Of a stretch of DNA of 64,000 bases, positions 17,993-26,318 are shown piece by piece. The stretch covers positions 1,488,001 to 1,552,000 of the forward strand of contig NZ_JHZX01000001.1 of the NCBI RefSeq assembly GCF_000688335.1. Direction: 5' to 3'. This DNA comes from Sediminibacter sp. Hel_I_10. GTDB taxonomy: Bacteria; Bacteroidota; Bacteroidia; Flavobacteriales; Flavobacteriaceae. The notes under the pieces were generated by a model that saw only the letters and a list, made by a program, of their open reading frames with translations, had not been told where the DNA came from and searched no databases. The first letter of the stretch is position 1, and each line of letters begins with the position of its first letter. The position numbers were made by a program, and so were the translations under genes.

Positions 17993-18847
17993 TTATCTGC
18001 TTCCTCTCCCTCCCATACGTTGCGCTCTAAACTCTTTCATTTTCTCAACAATGGTTTCTTGGTAAGCCGCTTTTGTAATGGCTTTACCTTTATTTGGCGC
18101 CTCAATCTCTATTTTATCTTCTGGATTGAGCACAAGTTTAGTGCATAACATGGTAGTGTCTCCTGCACTAACCTCAAGAATTAATCCTGGAAGGCCCCAA
18201 TATTCTGAAGGTCCGTGCCCAACAGGAATCTGTGGTGTATACCAAGCAGTTACATCAGTCATCGCTAGAGTATTTTCCGCAGCATTTGAATCTGAAGTTT
18301 CAGCATTATTCGTCCTCAATTTATCCCAAGAGAAAGAGTACCAGGTCAATTGGTTAGAAGGTATAGATGCTGAGGCTTTAAAACACATGTAGTTTCCTAT
18401 TTGTTTGCTTTCGGTTTCCATGACCCATGTTATGGGTTGCAAGCTATCGGTTACTAAAAAACGTTTTCCGTAGAATTCTTGATCTTGAATTTGGGTATTG
18501 GTTTTTACATTTTTGTATTGATCTCCAGGAGTAAAATTTTTACCCCAAGAATCAGTAGCTCCAGACATGGCATCAAGTTTATCATCTTCAACAAACATGG
18601 ATTCTGTTCTATTGAAAGTTAAGGTGTAGGTTTTCACAAGCCTATTTTTTAAACGTGCCTTTACCTGCTTCTTTTGCTCTTCGCTTAATCGATCTCCCCA
18701 TCGTCCAAGATCTAATGAAGATTTTGACATGTAAGAAGCCTGACCTTGAAAATCATTTTTTTGAAGATTTGTTAGTGGTTTTGGATTCATAAACCCAAAA
18801 AAACTTATCGAGAAGAGAGCTGCGGTAACTAATAATAGTGATTTCAT
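17993..18847 (-). CDS. GLPGLI family protein A
   Basis: 284 residues with an N-terminal signal peptide (about 1-20). The family hallmark GLPGLILE is at 218-225, preceded by AWYTPQIPVGHGP. Other shared blocks are DFQGQASYMSK, LTFNRTES and YKNVKTNTQ. The mature protein has exactly two cysteines, C155 in NYMCFKA and C235 in MLCTK, at places matched in the two paralogs nearby. GLPGLI proteins are a Bacteroidota family of unknown biochemical function, secreted or periplasmic. It ends in a basic, glycine-rich tail (AQRMGGRGSR). It lies downstream of the beta-barrel gene after a terminator, so it is probably its own unit. Confidence 0.9.
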   Translation of the reverse strand: MKSLLLVTAALFSISFFGFMNPKPLTNLQKNDFQGQASYMSKSSLDLGRWGDRLSEEQKKQVKARLKNRLVKTYTLTFNRTESMFVEDDKLDAMSGATDSWGKNFTPGDQYKNVKTNTQIQDQEFYGKRFLVTDSLQPITWVMETESKQIGNYMCFKASASIPSNQLTWYSFSWDKLRTNNAETSDSNAAENTLAMTDVTAWYTPQIPVGHGPSEYWGLPGLILEVSAGDTTMLCTKLVLNPEDKIEIEAPNKGKAITKAAYQETIVEKMKEFRAQRMGGRGSR

Positions 18848-19051: not shown

Positions 19052-21802
19052 TTAAAGTGTATATATCAAACGAAATGTTACAATTCTAGGCAGTATAAAC
19101 GTCTCTGAACTGAATACAGAAATATTAGTTGCACCATTACTAACATTAGAATCTATATTTAAGATGTTGGCAGCCTTAATTTCGTACTCCAACTTCGCAT
19201 CTTGATCCTTTCTATATGACAAGGAGGCATCCCAAGTTTGAAACGACTGTGATGGTCCCGAGCCTCTGTCTTGATTGGTATAGGTGTAATCTGTTCTAAG
19301 TGTAAAAGATTTAAATATGTAAGCATCAAATTCCACCGAAGGCGCATTGGTCTTAAATGTTGTAGAATTAGTACCCTGATCGTTATTAGTTACGGAGTAT
19401 CTATATTTTAGACTCACATTTGGCGCTTCTCTAAAATTGGTGCGCAATTCTGGAGTGTAACTCTGCGTAAAGCTCTCATTAACCGTTTGCCTGTCTTGCA
19501 CAAACTGATTGTTTTTACTATAATTAAAACTCACGTTTAAACCTGCTCTAATCTTTTTGAATGTTCTTTGAACGCGACCAAAAGCGGTTAAACTCTCATC
19601 TGCAAAACTTGAATTAAAAAATGTACTGGTACTAATAATATTATCAAAGCTTGTTCTATTTCTAATTTGATCTATATTCTTATTATAATTTACCACGGCG
19701 TAAACGTTGGTATAATTAAACAGATTAAAACTAAAATAATTTAACCTCAAATTATGGGATAATGCATTTTGCAATTCTGGGTTACCGGCTTGAAGACTAT
19801 TGTAATTATTAAACACTAAACCTTCCGCTAATTTGGTAACATCTGTAAAAGAATTGGTCATGTTGTAGCGGAAGGTGAGATTCTCACTTTTTTTGAATTG
19901 AATTCTGGTTTCGAAATCAGGTAACACTCTAAAGAAATTATCTTCATAGGTTTCACCAAATTGGGTATTTTTATTTCCGTAGGCATGAACAGAAACCCCT
20001 GGAGTAATGGTGAATTTTCCTGTCTTGAGTCTATAGTGTAGTCCCAAATAAATATCACTAAAGTTATATTCGGTGTCATTAGAATCTAAGCCATCATTAA
20101 TGGTCGGTTCAGGATTAAAGACACTACCATCATCTAAAAACTGGAAGATGTTTGAGTTAAATTTTTGATTGCTTAAAATGGTTCCTAAAGTAAGGTTGAT
20201 GTTACTCTTTTGATTTAAAATATTATAGTAATCTAATTTCGCATCCAATTGATTGGATTTTATGCGTCGATCTTGATTAATATTATAAACGTTCTGCGTT
20301 CTGTCAAACCCTATGGCATCTGCGGTATTGTCAAAGGCATCTTCGTTTGGAATGTCATCATTACCAAAGCCATTTTCATTATTGGTTGGATCATTAACCA
20401 ATAAAGCATTGTAGAACGGGTCTTCATCTTTAATAAGGTGCTGCGCCTCAAAAGCAAAAATATTAGTCTCATTAAGTGTGTAATAATAATTTAAACTTTG
20501 ATTGATACTAAAAGGTTTTACTGCATCGATTTGATTGGTATTGCCCACAACAGAAGACAATAAATTTTGTGCTTCGCGATCATCAGAGATTCTTCCCAAT
20601 ATATCGTAATTCAATTGGTTATTGGCGTTTGGCTTATAGGCAGCACTCAGTTTTGCTAATCCCTGATTTGTAGATTCCCTTCCGGTTTGTATGGTACGTT
20701 CATCTGGTATTCCTAAATCTGAATCAATATAACTTACAAAACGCTCTTCTCTAGTAAGTAGTCTAGAACTATTATAAATCAAAAAACCACTAATATCTAA
20801 TGCTTTATTTGGAGAATAACTAAAGTTTGCGGCGCTCAACTTTGTGGTAACCTCTTGAGCACTGGCCACATTAGAAAGCCCATTAAGTCCATTATCTCCT
20901 AAATTAATAGACGTGCCACTACTTTGGCTAGGTGGCCTAAAGCCGCCACCAAAGTTTCTGATATCTCTATTGGTTAAGGCCACCTCACCTATATTGTTCA
21001 TATCGCCAATAAGGTTAATGCTATATTTTGGGCTGTAATAAAACAGTTTTGGCTGCACCAAATAATAACCGTCATTGTTGGCAATACCAGAGCCCGCCGT
21101 AACATCTCCAAACCAAAAATTCTTTTTACCTTCTTTTAGTTTGATATTTATGGCGACATTATCCTGATTATTGGTCACACTACTCATTTGACCTACTTCG
21201 GAATAATTACGCAACACCTGAATTTTATCTACCGCATTAGAAGGAATGTTCTTAGTTGCTAATTTAGAATCCCCATCAAAAAAATCTTTACCATCTACCA
21301 TCAATTTAGTGACCACCTTACCTTCAACTTCAATTTGGCCATCGGCATTGATTTCTACACCAGGCAATTTTTTTAAAACGTCCTCTAATTTACGTTCCGT
21401 TCCGTCTTTAAAGGAATCGGCATTATAAACTAAAGTGTCTCCTTTTATCGTCACGGGCATTTCGTAAGTCAATTCAACTTCTGCCAATGAGTTATCACTT
21501 TGCAGCGTATAATCTTGCTCTATACTGGTCTCCTTAGTGCTTAAGGTTTCCGAAGCAGACTTCATCCCGATGTAACTTACTTGCACCGTGTAAGTCGTGT
21601 TTTTTTCTAGGTTCAATTTAAATTGACCTTTATCATTGGTGATGGCATAAGAGGCCATAGCTTTGGTTTGGGCATTAATTGCAATGACGTTTGCCAGTTC
21701 TAAAGGCTCGCCAATACTGTCTTTAACTACCCCATTAACGGTGATTTGAGCACTACAAATACTTGTTACAAAAAGTAACGTTAGGAATATAATCTGTTTC
21801 AT
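19052..21802 (-). CDS. Outer-membrane beta-barrel protein, TonB-receptor-like, with carboxypeptidase-regulatory N-domain
   Basis: 916 residues. A signal peptide (1-18) is followed by a CarboxypepD_reg/CNA-B-like domain (about 20-105, ITVNGVVKDSIGEPLELANV) and a plug-like segment (about 115-225) with LEDVLKKLPGVEINADG and VMVDGKDF-type motifs. A long beta-barrel with alternating aromatic strands follows, ending in RIVTFRLIYTL. This is the OMP_b-brl_3 type commonly named outer membrane beta-barrel protein. No substrate can be read from sequence. It lies between GLPGLI A and GLPGLI B on the same strand, 75 bp after the latter. Co-occurrence suggests that the barrel and the GLPGLI proteins work together. 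Confidence 0.9.
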   Translation of the reverse strand: MKQIIFLTLLFVTSICSAQITVNGVVKDSIGEPLELANVIAINAQTKAMASYAITNDKGQFKLNLEKNTTYTVQVSYIGMKSASETLSTKETSIEQDYTLQSDNSLAEVELTYEMPVTIKGDTLVYNADSFKDGTERKLEDVLKKLPGVEINADGQIEVEGKVVTKLMVDGKDFFDGDSKLATKNIPSNAVDKIQVLRNYSEVGQMSSVTNNQDNVAINIKLKEGKKNFWFGDVTAGSGIANNDGYYLVQPKLFYYSPKYSINLIGDMNNIGEVALTNRDIRNFGGGFRPPSQSSGTSINLGDNGLNGLSNVASAQEVTTKLSAANFSYSPNKALDISGFLIYNSSRLLTREERFVSYIDSDLGIPDERTIQTGRESTNQGLAKLSAAYKPNANNQLNYDILGRISDDREAQNLLSSVVGNTNQIDAVKPFSINQSLNYYYTLNETNIFAFEAQHLIKDEDPFYNALLVNDPTNNENGFGNDDIPNEDAFDNTADAIGFDRTQNVYNINQDRRIKSNQLDAKLDYYNILNQKSNINLTLGTILSNQKFNSNIFQFLDDGSVFNPEPTINDGLDSNDTEYNFSDIYLGLHYRLKTGKFTITPGVSVHAYGNKNTQFGETYEDNFFRVLPDFETRIQFKKSENLTFRYNMTNSFTDVTKLAEGLVFNNYNSLQAGNPELQNALSHNLRLNYFSFNLFNYTNVYAVVNYNKNIDQIRNRTSFDNIISTSTFFNSSFADESLTAFGRVQRTFKKIRAGLNVSFNYSKNNQFVQDRQTVNESFTQSYTPELRTNFREAPNVSLKYRYSVTNNDQGTNSTTFKTNAPSVEFDAYIFKSFTLRTDYTYTNQDRGSGPSQSFQTWDASLSYRKDQDAKLEYEIKAANILNIDSNVSNGATNISVFSSETFILPRIVTFRLIYTL

Positions 21803-21877: not shown

Positions 21878-22750
21878 TTAATCTCTTCTGCCCCGTCCTC
21901 TACCGCCATACATTTGGCGCATTTCCTCTATTTTATCTTTCATAATGGTATTGTACTCCTCTCGTGAAACCACCTCTCCTTTTTCTGGCTTCTCAATTTT
22001 TTGCTTGTCCTGCGGATTCATAACAATTTTTGTACAAAGCATAACGGTTTTATCTGCTGTTACTTCTAAAATTAAACCGGGCAAACCATGATATTCTCCA
22101 GGTCCATTATTAACCGGGATTTGCGGTGTGTACCAAGCCGTAACGATAATGAATTCTGGTACTTCAACCTCATCAAAAGGATCTGCGGTTTTAGTAGTAT
22201 CTGCAGTTTCTTTAGATTCCTTCTTTTCGTCATCTTTATTTTTTCGACGCATTTTTGTAAAATCCATCTCATCTACTTTTTTTGTCGTGGTTGCCTTAAA
22301 GCAAGTATATTGTCCAATTTGTTTGGTTTCGTTTTCCAGCTTCCATTCTAATTTTGGAAGAGAATCCTTGACGAGAAATTGCTTTCCGAAGAACTCTTGC
22401 TCTTGTAAAATGACGTTCTCCTTGATATTTTTGTACTGGGGACCTCCTGTAAAACTGCTCATCATACCTCCCCAACGGCTGCCGCCTGCTCCAGGAGCTT
22501 CTAATTTGTCTTCTTCCTTATAAGTAGATTCACTGCGGTTAAAGTTGAGCACGTACACTTTTTCTAACATGCTCTTCATGCGCTCTGCAATCATTTTCTT
22601 TTGCTGTTCGCTCATTTGACCGCCACCCCAATCTCCCATATCAACGGTAGTCTTCGTTTGATAAATGGCTTGGCCCTGAAAGTCTTGTGCAGTTACTATA
22701 GACGTTATACAAAAAAGGACTGAAAAAATGGTAAGTGTAAGAGTTCTCAT
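21878..22750 (-). CDS. GLPGLI family protein B
   Basis: 290 residues with a signal peptide ending near residue 21. GLPGLILEV is at 222-230, after TAWYTPQIPVNNGPGEYH. It shares FQGQAIYQTKT, LNFNRSES and PQYKNIKENV blocks with its two neighbours, so the three are paralogs. The mature part has two cysteines, C150 (QYTCFKA) and C239 (MLCTK). A charged insertion (about 165-195, rich in Lys, Glu and Asp) is absent from the others, and the tail is Gly/Arg-rich (GGRGRGRRD). It lies 105 bp downstream of GLPGLI C and 75 bp upstream of the barrel gene. Biochemical role unknown. Confidence 0.9.
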   Translation of the reverse strand: MRTLTLTIFSVLFCITSIVTAQDFQGQAIYQTKTTVDMGDWGGGQMSEQQKKMIAERMKSMLEKVYVLNFNRSESTYKEEDKLEAPGAGGSRWGGMMSSFTGGPQYKNIKENVILQEQEFFGKQFLVKDSLPKLEWKLENETKQIGQYTCFKATTTKKVDEMDFTKMRRKNKDDEKKESKETADTTKTADPFDEVEVPEFIIVTAWYTPQIPVNNGPGEYHGLPGLILEVTADKTVMLCTKIVMNPQDKQKIEKPEKGEVVSREEYNTIMKDKIEEMRQMYGGRGRGRRD

Positions 22751-22855: not shown

Positions 22856-23680
22856 TCAGTCTCCAAATGAAATGATCTTCATCTCACCGTTTCGGCTTCT
22901 TGATTTTAGATCTTCCATTTGCTCTTCCATCTTCTTATTTACTATAGCATCATACTCACTTTGGCTCACTTCCTTACCTCTTGAAGGTTCCTTAACCTCT
23001 ACCTTTTTTTCGGGATTGAGCACAATCTTACTACAGATTAAGGTTAATTCACCGTCATTTATCTCAAGGATGAGTCCTGGTAATCCTTGGAAATCCTCAG
23101 GGCCATGACTTAAGGGGATTTGGGGCGTGTACCAAGCCGTAGTTGTTTTTTCTTTTTCAACATCCTCTAATTTGCCATCATCTGTAAAAGTTTTATCGGT
23201 GTAGTTCTTTGTAAATTCAGCCTTAAAGCAAGTATAGTTGCCAATATTCTTAGTTTCATTTACCAATTTCCACTCAATGGGGTTTATACTATCCTTTATT
23301 AAAAAGGCCTTGCCAAAAATCTCATTAGCGCTTGTGTAGCGTTGCTCCTTAATATTTTTATAGCGAACATCAGAACCATTAGACATTGTCACTGTGATAC
23401 CACCCGCAGATGGCTTTGGTGTAGAAAGCACCTCTTCCTGTTTGTAAAGAGATTCCTCTCTATTGAAACTTAAAAAATAGGTTTTTTGAGATTGTTTTTT
23501 GATTTGCTCATAGATTTGCTTTTTCATGGCATCGTTTAAATTGTCACCTTCCATTTTCATTTCTATTTTTCGATGGGATTTATAAGTCGCGATCCCTGAA
23601 AATTCTTGAGCATTTAGCGTACAGCAAATTGATACTATTGCCACTAAAAATAGTTTTGATATAAAGTTCATTATATTCAT
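22856..23680 (-). CDS. GLPGLI family protein C
   Basis: 274 residues with a signal peptide ending near residue 24 (ICCTLNAQ). GLPGLILE is at 199-206 after TAWYTPQIPLSHGP. The mature part has two cysteines, C151 (NYTCFKA) and C216 (LICSK), aligned with those of the two neighbours. It lacks the Gly/Arg-rich tail of A and B. Its start overlaps the end of the preceding small gene by 4 nt (ATGA type), so the two are translationally coupled. Function unknown. Confidence 0.9.
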   Translation of the reverse strand: MNIMNFISKLFLVAIVSICCTLNAQEFSGIATYKSHRKIEMKMEGDNLNDAMKKQIYEQIKKQSQKTYFLSFNREESLYKQEEVLSTPKPSAGGITVTMSNGSDVRYKNIKEQRYTSANEIFGKAFLIKDSINPIEWKLVNETKNIGNYTCFKAEFTKNYTDKTFTDDGKLEDVEKEKTTTAWYTPQIPLSHGPEDFQGLPGLILEINDGELTLICSKIVLNPEKKVEVKEPSRGKEVSQSEYDAIVNKKMEEQMEDLKSRSRNGEMKIISFGD

Positions 23681-24048
23681 TTTTTAGAATTATAAAAATT
23701 AATAGCAGCTGTTCTTACTTTTTCGACCGATTTAAGAAACCCCACTCTATCGCTAGTATTCCCCTTGACTTTATAAGTCAAGGATCTATTGACGTCTTTG
23801 CTTATTTTCTCTCCATTGCAAATAATTTCAAAAGAGATCTGTTCGTCATTATCAGACATATCCATAAACTCCTCAATATCTTCCATCTTAATTGAGTTTT
23901 CCAATTCTTCCTTAGAATCGACCGTTATGGATATTTTCAAATCAGATACCGTTGCTTTAGATTGCGATTTGTTTTCTTCTGGGTTGTTTGACTGTGAAAA
24001 GCCAAGCGTCGCTACGGATAGCATAAGCATTGTAACTAGATGTTTCAT
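23677..24048 (-). CDS. Small exported protein of unknown function, first gene of the GLPGLI operon
   Basis: 123 residues with a clear signal peptide (MKHLVTMLMLSVATLGFSQ). The mature part is acidic in the middle (MEDIEEFMDMSDNDEQ) and has one cysteine in IICNGEKI. It ends in a basic helix with KSVEKVRTAAINFYN. I do not recognise a family. Its stop overlaps the start of GLPGLI C by 4 nt, and it is the gene nearest the divergent promoter region. It is therefore expected to be expressed with the GLPGLI proteins in the periplasm. Confidence 0.78.
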   Translation of the reverse strand: MKHLVTMLMLSVATLGFSQSNNPEENKSQSKATVSDLKISITVDSKEELENSIKMEDIEEFMDMSDNDEQISFEIICNGEKISKDVNRSLTYKVKGNTSDRVGFLKSVEKVRTAAINFYNSKK

Positions 24049-24076
24049 TTTTATTTGTTTTAAGTTGAATACATTA

Positions 24077-24084
24077 CAAACTTA
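24077..24084 (-). promoter_or_regulatory. -7 box of the GLPGLI operon
   Basis: On the minus strand TAAGTTTG matches TAnnTTTG exactly, 28 bp before the start codon at 24048. No TTG is at the -33 position; the GTTAAC array begins 23 bp upstream instead, the arrangement of an activator-dependent promoter. Confidence 0.55.
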
Positions 24085-24106
24085 AACCGAGAGGAGCAGT
24101 TACTTA

Positions 24107-24136
24107 GTTAACCAACGTTAACGTGTGTTAACCAAT
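24107..24136. promoter_or_regulatory. Triple 10-bp direct repeat (GTTAAC array), predicted operator
   Basis: Three units follow head to tail: GTTAACCAAC (24107), GTTAACGTGT (24117), GTTAACCAAT (24127). The hexamer is invariant and the period is exactly 10 bp, close to one DNA turn. OmpR/PhoB-type regulators bind tandem repeats of 10-11 bp, and such a regulator is encoded at 25638. The array lies 22 bp from the -7 box of the GLPGLI operon on one side and 24 bp from that of the kinase gene on the other, so it could activate both arms. Confidence 0.7.
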
Positions 24137-24160
24137 AGTTTAAATTACAATCAATACGCT

Positions 24161-24168
24161 TACTTTTG
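24161..24168 (+). promoter_or_regulatory. -7 box of the histidine kinase gene, possibly leaderless
   Basis: TACTTTTG matches TAnnTTTG exactly and ends only 4 bp before the ATG at 24173. In Bacteroidota this box is centred near -7, so transcription would start at or next to the start codon. Confidence 0.5.
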
Positions 24169-24172
24169 AACT

Positions 24173-25645
24173 ATGGACAATAAGCTCTATCAAAGAATCC
24201 TATATTTTATTATCGTGACCATTGCGCTCACCTTGACGGTGCAACTCTATTGGAACTATAAAAACTATCAAAAAAATCTTCAAAATTTTCAAAATGAAGT
24301 CCAAATTAGCTTAGACAATGCCCTGGACCTCTATTATGCTGAACTTACCAAAAAGAACCACATGACCTTTATAGATCTTGAGGCTACAGACAATAGCATT
24401 GAAAACCTAGAAGGCTTAATGGACAAATTGGAAATGGACTCGGTATACCGAGAGTTTCAGGCAAGCTATTCTAAAGATGTTGACTCTATCACCCAGATTG
24501 TAAAAACGGAAACCGGGGAACAAGCTCTAACCTTTTCAAACAACTCCAATAAAATCTCCAGTCTTAAAGTGATACGTGGTAAAAAAGCGGCAGACAGCAT
24601 CAAGTTGCTTAAGAATATCACGTCTATTTATATATCTATTCAAGACGATTCTCTAAAGCTTAGCGATCTTTCTCCGCTTATCGAAAAAGAACTGCAACGT
24701 AAACAACTGAGCATTCCGTTTGCCTTGAAATATAACGGTACAGACAGTATCAAACTCAATTTTAACCAAAAGATTGTTGAACCAAACTTCTTCCAAACAG
24801 AAGCCAAATCAAAATTTTTAAAGTCTAATGAATCGTTACTCCTATTTTACCCAAATGCTACCAATATTGTGCTTCAGCAAGGGCTTGCAGGCTTGCTCAT
24901 TTCCGTAGTATTACTGTTGGGAATTATGGCATGCCTCATTTATTTATTAAAAGTCATTAAAAATCAACGGCAACTTTCTGAATTAAAAAATGACCTCATC
25001 AGTAACATTACACATGAGTTTAAAACACCCATCTCCACCATTGGCGCTGCTTTAGAAGGCATTCAAAATTTTAACGCCATTGACGATAAACTAAAGACTA
25101 AAAACTATCTGGATATTTCGACCTTACAGTTATCCAAACTCAACAACATGGTTGAAAAATTATTGGAAACCGCCACCTTAGACAGTGAACATTTAGAGCT
25201 TCATAAAGAAATAGTTGATATTTCGGAATTAGTATTGACCATAGCCCAGAAACATCAATTTCAAAATAATTCTAAAACCCTAAGCACGTCTATTGAGACT
25301 GTTTGTAAGGCAAAAGTTGACTTGTTTCATTTTGAAAACGCCATTAACAACCTTCTAGATAATGCTTATAAATATGGCGGCAAGCACATCAGCGTTACCC
25401 TAAAGCAGATTAAAAATTTTGTTGAGATTAGCATTGCCGATGATGGCAACACACTCACCAAGCAAAATCAAGATCTTGTTTTTGAGAAGTTTTACCGCGT
25501 CCCAAAAGGTAACACCCATGATGTTAAAGGGTTTGGTATAGGTTTATATTACACCAAGAACATTATCGAAAAACATAACGGCAAAATTATTTTAGAGTTA
25601 AAGCCACAGCAAACTACATTTAAAATCCATCTCCCAAATGACTGA
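24173..25645 (+). CDS. Two-component sensor histidine kinase
   Basis: 490 residues. TM1 is at about 8-26 and TM2 at about 233-261, enclosing a periplasmic sensor domain of about 205 residues that I do not recognise. The H-box ISNITHEFKTPISTI places the phosphoacceptor at H281. The ATPase domain shows the N-box NAINNLLDNAYKYGG, the G1 motif ADDGN and the G2 motif GFGIGLYYTKNI. No HAMP domain is evident. The start is fixed by the membrane segment immediately after MDNKLYQR. It overlaps the response regulator gene by 8 nt. The divergent neighbours are all exported envelope proteins, so it probably senses an envelope signal and controls them. Confidence 0.95.
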   Translation: MDNKLYQRILYFIIVTIALTLTVQLYWNYKNYQKNLQNFQNEVQISLDNALDLYYAELTKKNHMTFIDLEATDNSIENLEGLMDKLEMDSVYREFQASYSKDVDSITQIVKTETGEQALTFSNNSNKISSLKVIRGKKAADSIKLLKNITSIYISIQDDSLKLSDLSPLIEKELQRKQLSIPFALKYNGTDSIKLNFNQKIVEPNFFQTEAKSKFLKSNESLLLFYPNATNIVLQQGLAGLLISVVLLLGIMACLIYLLKVIKNQRQLSELKNDLISNITHEFKTPISTIGAALEGIQNFNAIDDKLKTKNYLDISTLQLSKLNNMVEKLLETATLDSEHLELHKEIVDISELVLTIAQKHQFQNNSKTLSTSIETVCKAKVDLFHFENAINNLLDNAYKYGGKHISVTLKQIKNFVEISIADDGNTLTKQNQDLVFEKFYRVPKGNTHDVKGFGIGLYYTKNIIEKHNGKIILELKPQQTTFKIHLPND

Positions 25646-26318
25646 ACCCATTACCATACTGCTTGCCGAAGATGAGCCCGCTTTGGGACAAATCATAAAG
25701 GAAAGTTTAGAAACCAGAAATTTCAAGGTCTTACTTTGCGAAGATGGAGAAAAGGCCTTTAAAGTGTATACCGCTGAGCAACCCGAATTGCTGGTTTTAG
25801 ACGTGATGATGCCAAAAAAAGACGGCTTCACTTTAGCCAAAGACATTAGAGCTATTGATGACACCATCCCCATTATTTTCTTGACCGCTAAATCACAAAC
25901 CCAAGATGTGGTTGAAGGTTTTAGTATTGGCGGTGATGACTATCTCAAAAAACCTTTTAGTATGGAGGAGCTCATTGTTAGAATCAACAATTTACTCCAT
26001 CGTAAATCGACTCAAAAGGCTTCGGAAATTTTAACGGTGGGGCAATTTCGTTTTGATTTCCCTAAGCAACAACTTCATTTTAAAGAGGAGACACAACAGT
26101 TGACCCACAGAGAAGCACATTTATTATTTCATTTGGTAAAGAACAAAAATCAAGTGCTAGATCGCTCTCTTATTTTAAATAAACTTTGGGGAACCGATGA
26201 TTTTTTCTCTGCCCGAAGTATGGATGTGTTTATCACAAAACTTCGCAAAAAATTGAAACAAGACGAGGCCGTACAGATTTTAAATGTTCGTGGCTTTGGC
26301 TATAAGCTGGTTTGTTAG
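25638..26318 (+). CDS. OmpR/PhoB-family response regulator
   Basis: 226 residues. The receiver domain (about 5-118) has the acidic pair ED (11-12), phosphoacceptor D55 in VLDVMMP, T83 in FLTAK and K105 in LKKPF. The C-terminal winged-helix domain (about 130-226) has LTHREAHLLFHLVKN and SMDVFITKLRKKL, with VRGFGYKLVC at the end. It overlaps the kinase gene by 8 nt, so the two form a cognate pair. The tandem 10-bp repeats at 24107-24136 are its likely binding site. Confidence 0.95.
   Translation: MTEPITILLAEDEPALGQIIKESLETRNFKVLLCEDGEKAFKVYTAEQPELLVLDVMMPKKDGFTLAKDIRAIDDTIPIIFLTAKSQTQDVVEGFSIGGDDYLKKPFSMEELIVRINNLLHRKSTQKASEILTVGQFRFDFPKQQLHFKEETQQLTHREAHLLFHLVKNKNQVLDRSLILNKLWGTDDFFSARSMDVFITKLRKKLKQDEAVQILNVRGFGYKLVC

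Follow-up and report, generated by a model that had tools for sequence, protein, structure and literature searches.

The window, that is, the whole stretch of 64,000 nucleotides of Sediminibacter sp. Hel_I_10 DNA analysed here, holds an intergenic spacer at positions 24049-24172 from which a kinase-regulator gene pair leaves rightward and a run of small-protein, GLPGLI and barrel genes leaves leftward. On the plus strand, a sensor histidine kinase of 490 amino acids with HisKA and HATPase_c domains (24173..25645) is followed by an overlapping gene for an OmpR/PhoB-family response regulator of 226 amino acids (25638..26318), the proposed binder of the repeats described below, whose reading frame starts at 25638, where a preliminary description of this DNA had placed it. 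The regulator has the receiver and the Trans_reg_C winged helix of the OmpR/PhoB type and is encoded beside the repeat array. It is 64 to 80% identical in 34 aligned relatives, and its DNA-recognition stretch, RSMDVFI[TS]KLRKKL, is nearly invariant among the 35 regulators aligned of the 79 listed. It falls short of an RprY assignment: the NCBIfam equivalog model NF051850, the best of the 25 models listed of 98, scored 269.9 bits, below the cut-off of 370.

On the minus strand, the spacer is flanked by the gene of a small protein of 123 amino acids with a signal-like N-terminus (23677..24048), which heads the divergent run in some members of the family; it has no Pfam or NCBIfam match, and a fold search gave no convincing match (best E 0.46). 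In another locus, a small signal-bearing protein gene that by eye resembles it lies on the kinase side of the array (L154:3547-3906). Further along the minus strand lie GLPGLI family protein 1 (22856..23680), GLPGLI family protein 2 (21878..22750), an outer-membrane beta-barrel protein with a carboxypeptidase-regulatory domain (19052..21802) and GLPGLI family protein 3 (17993..18847). The three GLPGLI proteins of the window pass the TIGR01200 cut-off of 50 bits with 189, 178 and 151 bits. Whether GLPGLI 3 belongs to the unit is uncertain because its upstream region holds only a single GTTAAC (18880), and window searches, including one with the array profile, rejected this hexamer as part of an array. 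The structural model of GLPGLI 1, built on an alignment of 70 sequences, has a mean pLDDT of 87.7, and among solved structures it comes closest in fold to PNGase F-II (E 9.6e-7), followed by ependymin-related proteins (best E 2.2e-4) and the lipoprotein carrier LolA (best E 7.6e-4), with low TM-scores of 0.25 to 0.47 in the best rows; that GLPGLI 1 may be a LolA-like periplasmic carrier is a guess from this predicted fold.

The window kinase and GLPGLI 1 match the proteins of 11 genomes from other genera, which were chosen for kinase similarity, at 50-57%, against 43-51% for their own genus. The regulator displays no such gap, and partial replacement of the kinase and GLPGLI 1 by transfer is possible. 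Elsewhere, one kinase gene lies in two reading frames behind an extra DUF5041 gene (L187:1324-3518) and one kinase match contains an internal stop codon (G130:C19:154926-156392), and both are possibly decayed.

In the middle of the spacer, GTTAAC occurs three times at a phase of exactly 10 bp (24107-24112, 24117-24122 and 24127-24132, the hexamers spanning 24107-24132) and together with its flanks forms a predicted three-repeat operator at 24106..24136 on the plus strand. Direct reading of the sequence gives GTTAACCAAC at 24107-24116, GTTAACGTGT at 24117-24126 and GTTAACCAAT at 24127-24136, which confirms the tandem repeats of the preliminary description. When up to 3 mismatches are tolerated, the window contains a single copy of the triple, where dinucleotide shuffles predict 0.04 (4 of 100 shuffles held one such match), whereas lone GTTAAC words are not enriched (14 versus 16.6 expected), so that only the phased triple stands out. 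The perfect triple is a single copy in the 4.1-Mb genome, and a profile of 76 distinct arrays, the window's included, matches the window at the 24106..24136 site only (36.5 bits); a search of the genome for two repeats gave two additional sites, a number in line with the reversed control. A many-copy motif in this genome was rejected on the count of one. Tandem repeats at about one helical turn (10-11 bp) are the direct-repeat arrangement of OmpR/PhoB-type sites, and the array also lies, as such sites do, just upstream of or overlapping the -35/-33 region, here of predicted promoters. Because GTTAAC is a palindrome, any direction of the repeats would come from their flanks alone, and the possible head-to-tail cues are the conserved G[AT]GT spacer, the CGATT tail and the fixed orientation toward the target genes.

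The conservation of the array was examined in the spacers upstream of homologous kinases. One set of kinases came from 28 genomes out of 57 relatives, counting the window genome, and a second, overlapping set from named records (80 loci). Merging 4 identical duplicates among the 108 loci (window included) left 104 distinct spacers; the family is presumably Flavobacteriaceae, judging from the named relatives in the kinase set. The window kinase is 37.7 to 48.4% identical to the 107 other kinases over the best aligned piece. With 16 core bases scored, GTTAA-N5-GTTAAC-N4-GTTAA, all 16 are kept in 97 of the 104 spacers, 15 in four, and 14, 10 and 8 in one each, while among 2080 shuffled spacers, obtained by first-order resampling and not by an exact dinucleotide shuffle, the top score was 14, reached once. 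The preliminary description had named a lack of conservation in orthologous spacers as grounds for refuting its reading, and the motif comes through this check comfortably. The two spacers that score below 14 (L029 and L096) have their arrays further upstream, past an intervening gene or stretch, and were left out of the promoter counts below, which cover 102 spacers. Conservation extends outside the hexamers to G[AT]GT between repeats 2 and 3 and to CGATT after repeat 3, and alignment of the 76 distinct arrays gives the family consensus nGTTAACnAGTGTTAACGTGTGTTAACCGATT. The triple GTTAAC is a strongly conserved putative operator.

The array also travels with the kinase. The exact pattern is present in 84 of 299 family genomes (the reversed-pattern control in 1) and the kinase, at E <= 1e-60, in 92; array and kinase occur together in 83 genomes, the array only in 1, the kinase only in 9 and neither in 206. 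The 84 array genomes span 73 genera, are phylogenetically non-independent and hold 97 exact sites, so that the array is mostly single-copy. In 79 of the 83 genomes holding both, the array lies no more than 1.6 kb upstream of the kinase; two of the remaining four have contig ends, with the array adjoining GLPGLI genes (G238, locus L168; G106, locus L208), and the other two carry an imperfect array at the kinase and an exact one elsewhere (G319, loci L165 and L163; G163, loci L166 and L164). All nine kinase-only genomes have imperfect or split arrays (G132, L169; G268, L170; G100, L171; G162, L172; G061, L173; G286, L174; G091, L206; G024, L030; G032, L031). The match in the array-only genome (G197) was rejected as a real operator and taken as chance, because its spacers are non-consensus and the kinase is absent. 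In an order-wide sample of 196 genomes, the pattern was found in 10 of 30 inside the family and in 0 of 166 outside it, with four matches in one genus (g146) likewise lying between GLPGLI and kinase-regulator genes; among 23 sampled genomes from other families of the order, none gave a kinase match at E <= 1e-60. The array profile, at E <= 0.003 and under strict filters, matched 28 of 28 kinase-bearing relatives and 0 of 29 kinase-less ones, a result that is partly circular for presence because the profile was built partly from those same genomes, and less so for copy number and for absence elsewhere.

Seven weak profile matches were also fetched, of which four lie inside coding regions and were taken as chance and three are intergenic (L151, L152 and L153). 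In one genome, four extra matches (G027; C3:300561, C3:373870, C4:17098 and C14:3398) have a different GTTAA-phased sequence, nearly identical in three copies; they look like a dispersed repeat element and were not counted as operators.

On either side of the array lies a candidate promoter. The predicted -7 box of the GLPGLI-side promoter, TAAGTTTG, is at 24077..24084 on the minus strand, 22 bp left of the array, with a predicted start at about 24072, a 24-nt leader to the reading frame at 24048 and repeat 1 at about -35 to -40. The predicted -7 box of the kinase promoter, TACTTTTG, is at 24161..24168 on the plus strand, 24 bp past 24136 and 28 bp past the third hexamer, which places the predicted start at 24173 and repeat 3 at -41 to -46; the distances of 22 and 24 bp had been given in the preliminary description and stand. 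The array as a whole thus spans -35 to -60 relative to the predicted GLPGLI-side start and -41 to -66 relative to that of the kinase. Both spacings are shared by the orthologous spacers, and the window obeys both. The gap between the array and CAAAnnT, the GLPGLI-side box read off the opposite strand, is exactly 22 bp in 87 of 102 spacers (CAAAnnTA in 25), and a perfect TAnnTTTG is present on the kinase side in 97 of 102, 26-28 bp past the third hexamer in 96 of these 97. The exceptions are 15 spacers lacking the 22-bp box and 5 lacking a perfect kinase-side box, one of which (L030) is a framing artefact.

On the kinase side, the spacing continues into the gene: of the 97 spacers that have a perfect box, 89 place exactly 4 nt between the G of TAnnTTTG and the kinase ATG. 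In the promoter descriptions available for Flavobacterium johnsoniae, the G of TAnnTTTG is at -5 (PMC6847099), and therefore transcription is predicted to start at the A of the ATG, giving a leaderless kinase mRNA, a point that the preliminary description had overlooked. Leaderless messages make up 5.5% of the mRNAs with mapped starts in the corresponding passages on Flavobacterium psychrophilum (PMC9723704). The preliminary description had taken the missing TTG at -33 as a sign of activator dependence, an argument that proves weak, as 29 of 102 orthologous spacers have TTG or TTTG at -33 on the kinase side; its absence says little because the -33 motif is generally faint in F. johnsoniae promoters, according to parts of the same report (PMC6847099).

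That a single central array serves both promoters, as had been proposed, is supported by the fixed spacing and by arrays that have been split, lost or duplicated. In one locus (L169), extra DNA splits the spacer and each promoter keeps repeats: three stand at 22 bp from the box on the GLPGLI side, and two, with the CGATT tail, at 27 bp from the box on the kinase side. Within the extra DNA (L169:1168-1266) is a short inverted repeat, CCCAC...GTGGG. In four loci a separate array precedes a second GLPGLI gene (L034, L040, L162 and L173, the first two being related); all four of these arrays have the 22-bp box, and none has a kinase-side box at 26-28 bp. A locus without a divergent GLPGLI match (L041) has lost repeat 1 and the left box but retains the other two repeats, with the kinase-side box at 28 bp. 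Where repeat 3 has decayed and two repeats are left (L030), neither box has moved: measured from where the three repeats would lie, the distances are still 22 and 27 bp. Two arrays break the rule, namely the main one of L162, which has no CAAAnnT at 22 bp, and the one nearest the kinase in L173, which has no TAnnTTTG at 26-28 bp; moreover, loss does not always follow function, because L031 keeps three degenerate repeats without a divergent GLPGLI match.

Another ten exact arrays are not beside kinase, GLPGLI or winged-helix genes, and for these the first box base was allowed to be C or T. [CT]AAAnnT is found at exactly 22 bp in six of them (L156, L157, L158, L161, L164 and L202), each with a gene leaving on the box side that codes for a thioredoxin-like, aspartyl-protease, TonB-like or unknown protein, and is missing at that distance in the other four (L160, L163, L167 and L207), L167 having a box at 32 bp. 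Counting weaker sites of at least 13 of the 16 core bases gives 24 matches in 13 of 78 loci, against 5 control matches.

We consider it likely that the neighbouring OmpR/PhoB-family regulator uses the array as its operator and controls from it both its own operon and the GLPGLI operon, probably as an activator. The regulator encoded at 25638, with its kinase at 24173, would bind the 10-bp repeats cooperatively on the same face of the helix, immediately upstream of a divergent pair of sigma-A promoters, and would contact RNA polymerase at both, thereby turning on its own operon (positive autoregulation) and the GLPGLI/outer-membrane operon. At the GLPGLI-side promoter, repeat 1 would occupy the place of the -33 element. 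Transcription of the kinase would begin at the A of its ATG, directed by a -7 box whose distance from the third hexamer is 28 bp here and 26-28 bp in relatives. Conservation, spacing, kinase co-occurrence and association with both promoters are computed results; the identity of the binder, activation over repression, the leaderless start and the grouping of each gene run into one operon are inferences. The preliminary description had named the site as the autoregulatory and GLPGLI-target operator of this regulator, and conservation and kinase co-occurrence support it, the regulator being the putative binder. Activation is suggested because both spans of the array, ending at -35 on one side and at -41 on the other, are typical positions for an activator.

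The same regulator might instead bind and repress one or both promoters, a reading to which we give some weight but consider unlikely. At the GLPGLI promoter, polymerase could be blocked from repeat 1, which lies at about -35 to -40 and so reaches into the -33 region, and in the published sections on Riemerella anatipestifer, deletion of PhoP raises two and lowers three of the GLPGLI genes that are listed as direct targets (PMC9603813). However, no repeat covers either -7 box or predicted start, the array ends at -41 on the kinase side, upstream of the -33 region, and the fixed spacing between the array and the -7 boxes is as expected if the bound protein contacts polymerase.

It is less probable still that the array is bound by another protein, such as a different response regulator or a winged-helix regulator that stands alone and is anchored in the membrane. 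The site could have an additional user, because three second arrays, from three genera, adjoin a different winged-helix gene (L146:3875-3900, L155:1982-2006 and L159:2008-2032). In these loci, a gene for a Trans_reg_C-only protein with a hydrophobic C-terminal segment flanks the array on the kinase-like side, where all three have TAnnTTTA at 27-28 bp, and an aspartyl-protease-like gene diverges from it on the other side. The DNA-binding domain of this winged-helix protein is 27 and 30% identical to that of the regulator in the two of three that gave a match, and either protein might bind there because those genomes carry the kinase too. Three loci of distant winged-helix relatives (L191, L192 and L193) hold no array at 13 or more of 16 bases. 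The winged-helix family (E <= 1e-12) is found in only 4 of 299 family genomes and is absent from the window genome, whereas the kinase accompanies the array in 83 of 84 genomes, which favours the adjacent two-component regulator as the binder.

We also put forward, as a speculation that we consider unlikely, that the triple GTTAAC is a polar operator code shared by the family, with regulator genes on one side (-7 box at 26-28 bp) and envelope or secreted effectors on the other (22 bp), which would be read both by the two-component system and by a membrane-anchored one-component winged-helix protein; in the two-component version, the operator, promoter and start codon would form a rigid unit giving the leaderless kinase mRNA. 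Finally, that the repeats are a chance or structural feature of DNA without a regulator can practically be dismissed, since, even though single GTTAAC words are at chance level in the window, it is contradicted by the conservation of the spacers against shuffles, the pattern count against the reversed control, the fixed spacing and the kinase co-occurrence.

Porphyromonas gingivalis belongs to a different bacterial order from the window organism, and its regulator PGN_0753 is presumably PG0720 in strain W83. Its HaeSR system resembles the window system in being a two-component system tied to GLPGLI genes whose regulator binds its own promoter: PGN_0753, as described in portions of two reports, affects the GLPGLI genes PG1492 and PG1908 (PMC8757827, PMC3764172), and the string GTTAA is absent from the main text of both. 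Riemerella anatipestifer PhoPR is likewise a kinase with an OmpR-family regulator. In the available sections of the reports, the most conserved motif bases are TTTAACA, which on the opposite strand is TGTTAAA and close to the window's TGTTAAC, PhoP binds upstream of its own operon, and the direct targets listed for it include five GLPGLI genes (PMC9603813, PMC5399024). PhoP differs in being a global regulator with 583 peaks whose site lies at -156 to -121 of its own operon, and those sections contain no three-repeat divergent operator.

The arrangement itself has parallels. Escherichia coli ArcA, likewise of the OmpR/PhoB family, has operators in which two to five direct repeats follow one another at roughly one helical turn (11 bp between centres), and excerpts of that work call the three-repeat architecture a novel finding for the family (PMC3798270). 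The ArcA repeats are degenerate, 11 bp apart and genome-wide, whereas those of the window type are near-invariant, exactly 10 bp apart and mostly single-copy. The OmpR-family regulator CenR of Rhodobacter recognises TGA-N8-TGA sites at envelope genes, direct repeats starting 10 bp apart, but, as far as the consulted sections go, with two half-sites, another sequence and many operons (PMC9275681). No description of a triple-GTTAAC kinase/GLPGLI operator was found in the open-licence literature searched on GLPGLI, a word that occurs in only 3 of its papers, on response regulators, on Flavobacterium promoters and on related topics. The kind of operator is already known, from E. coli ArcA and Riemerella PhoP, and the window module appears new against the literature searched.

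Taken together, these data suggest that the array is very probably the docking site at which a two-component system switches on itself and a set of cell-envelope proteins. The operator would link GLPGLI proteins, which are without an assigned function, to one dedicated sensor in nearly one third of the sampled family genomes. The geometry of the promoter pair is rigid and can be checked, the operator could serve as a reporter in the search for the signal, and the predicted leaderless kinase mRNA provides a second testable point.
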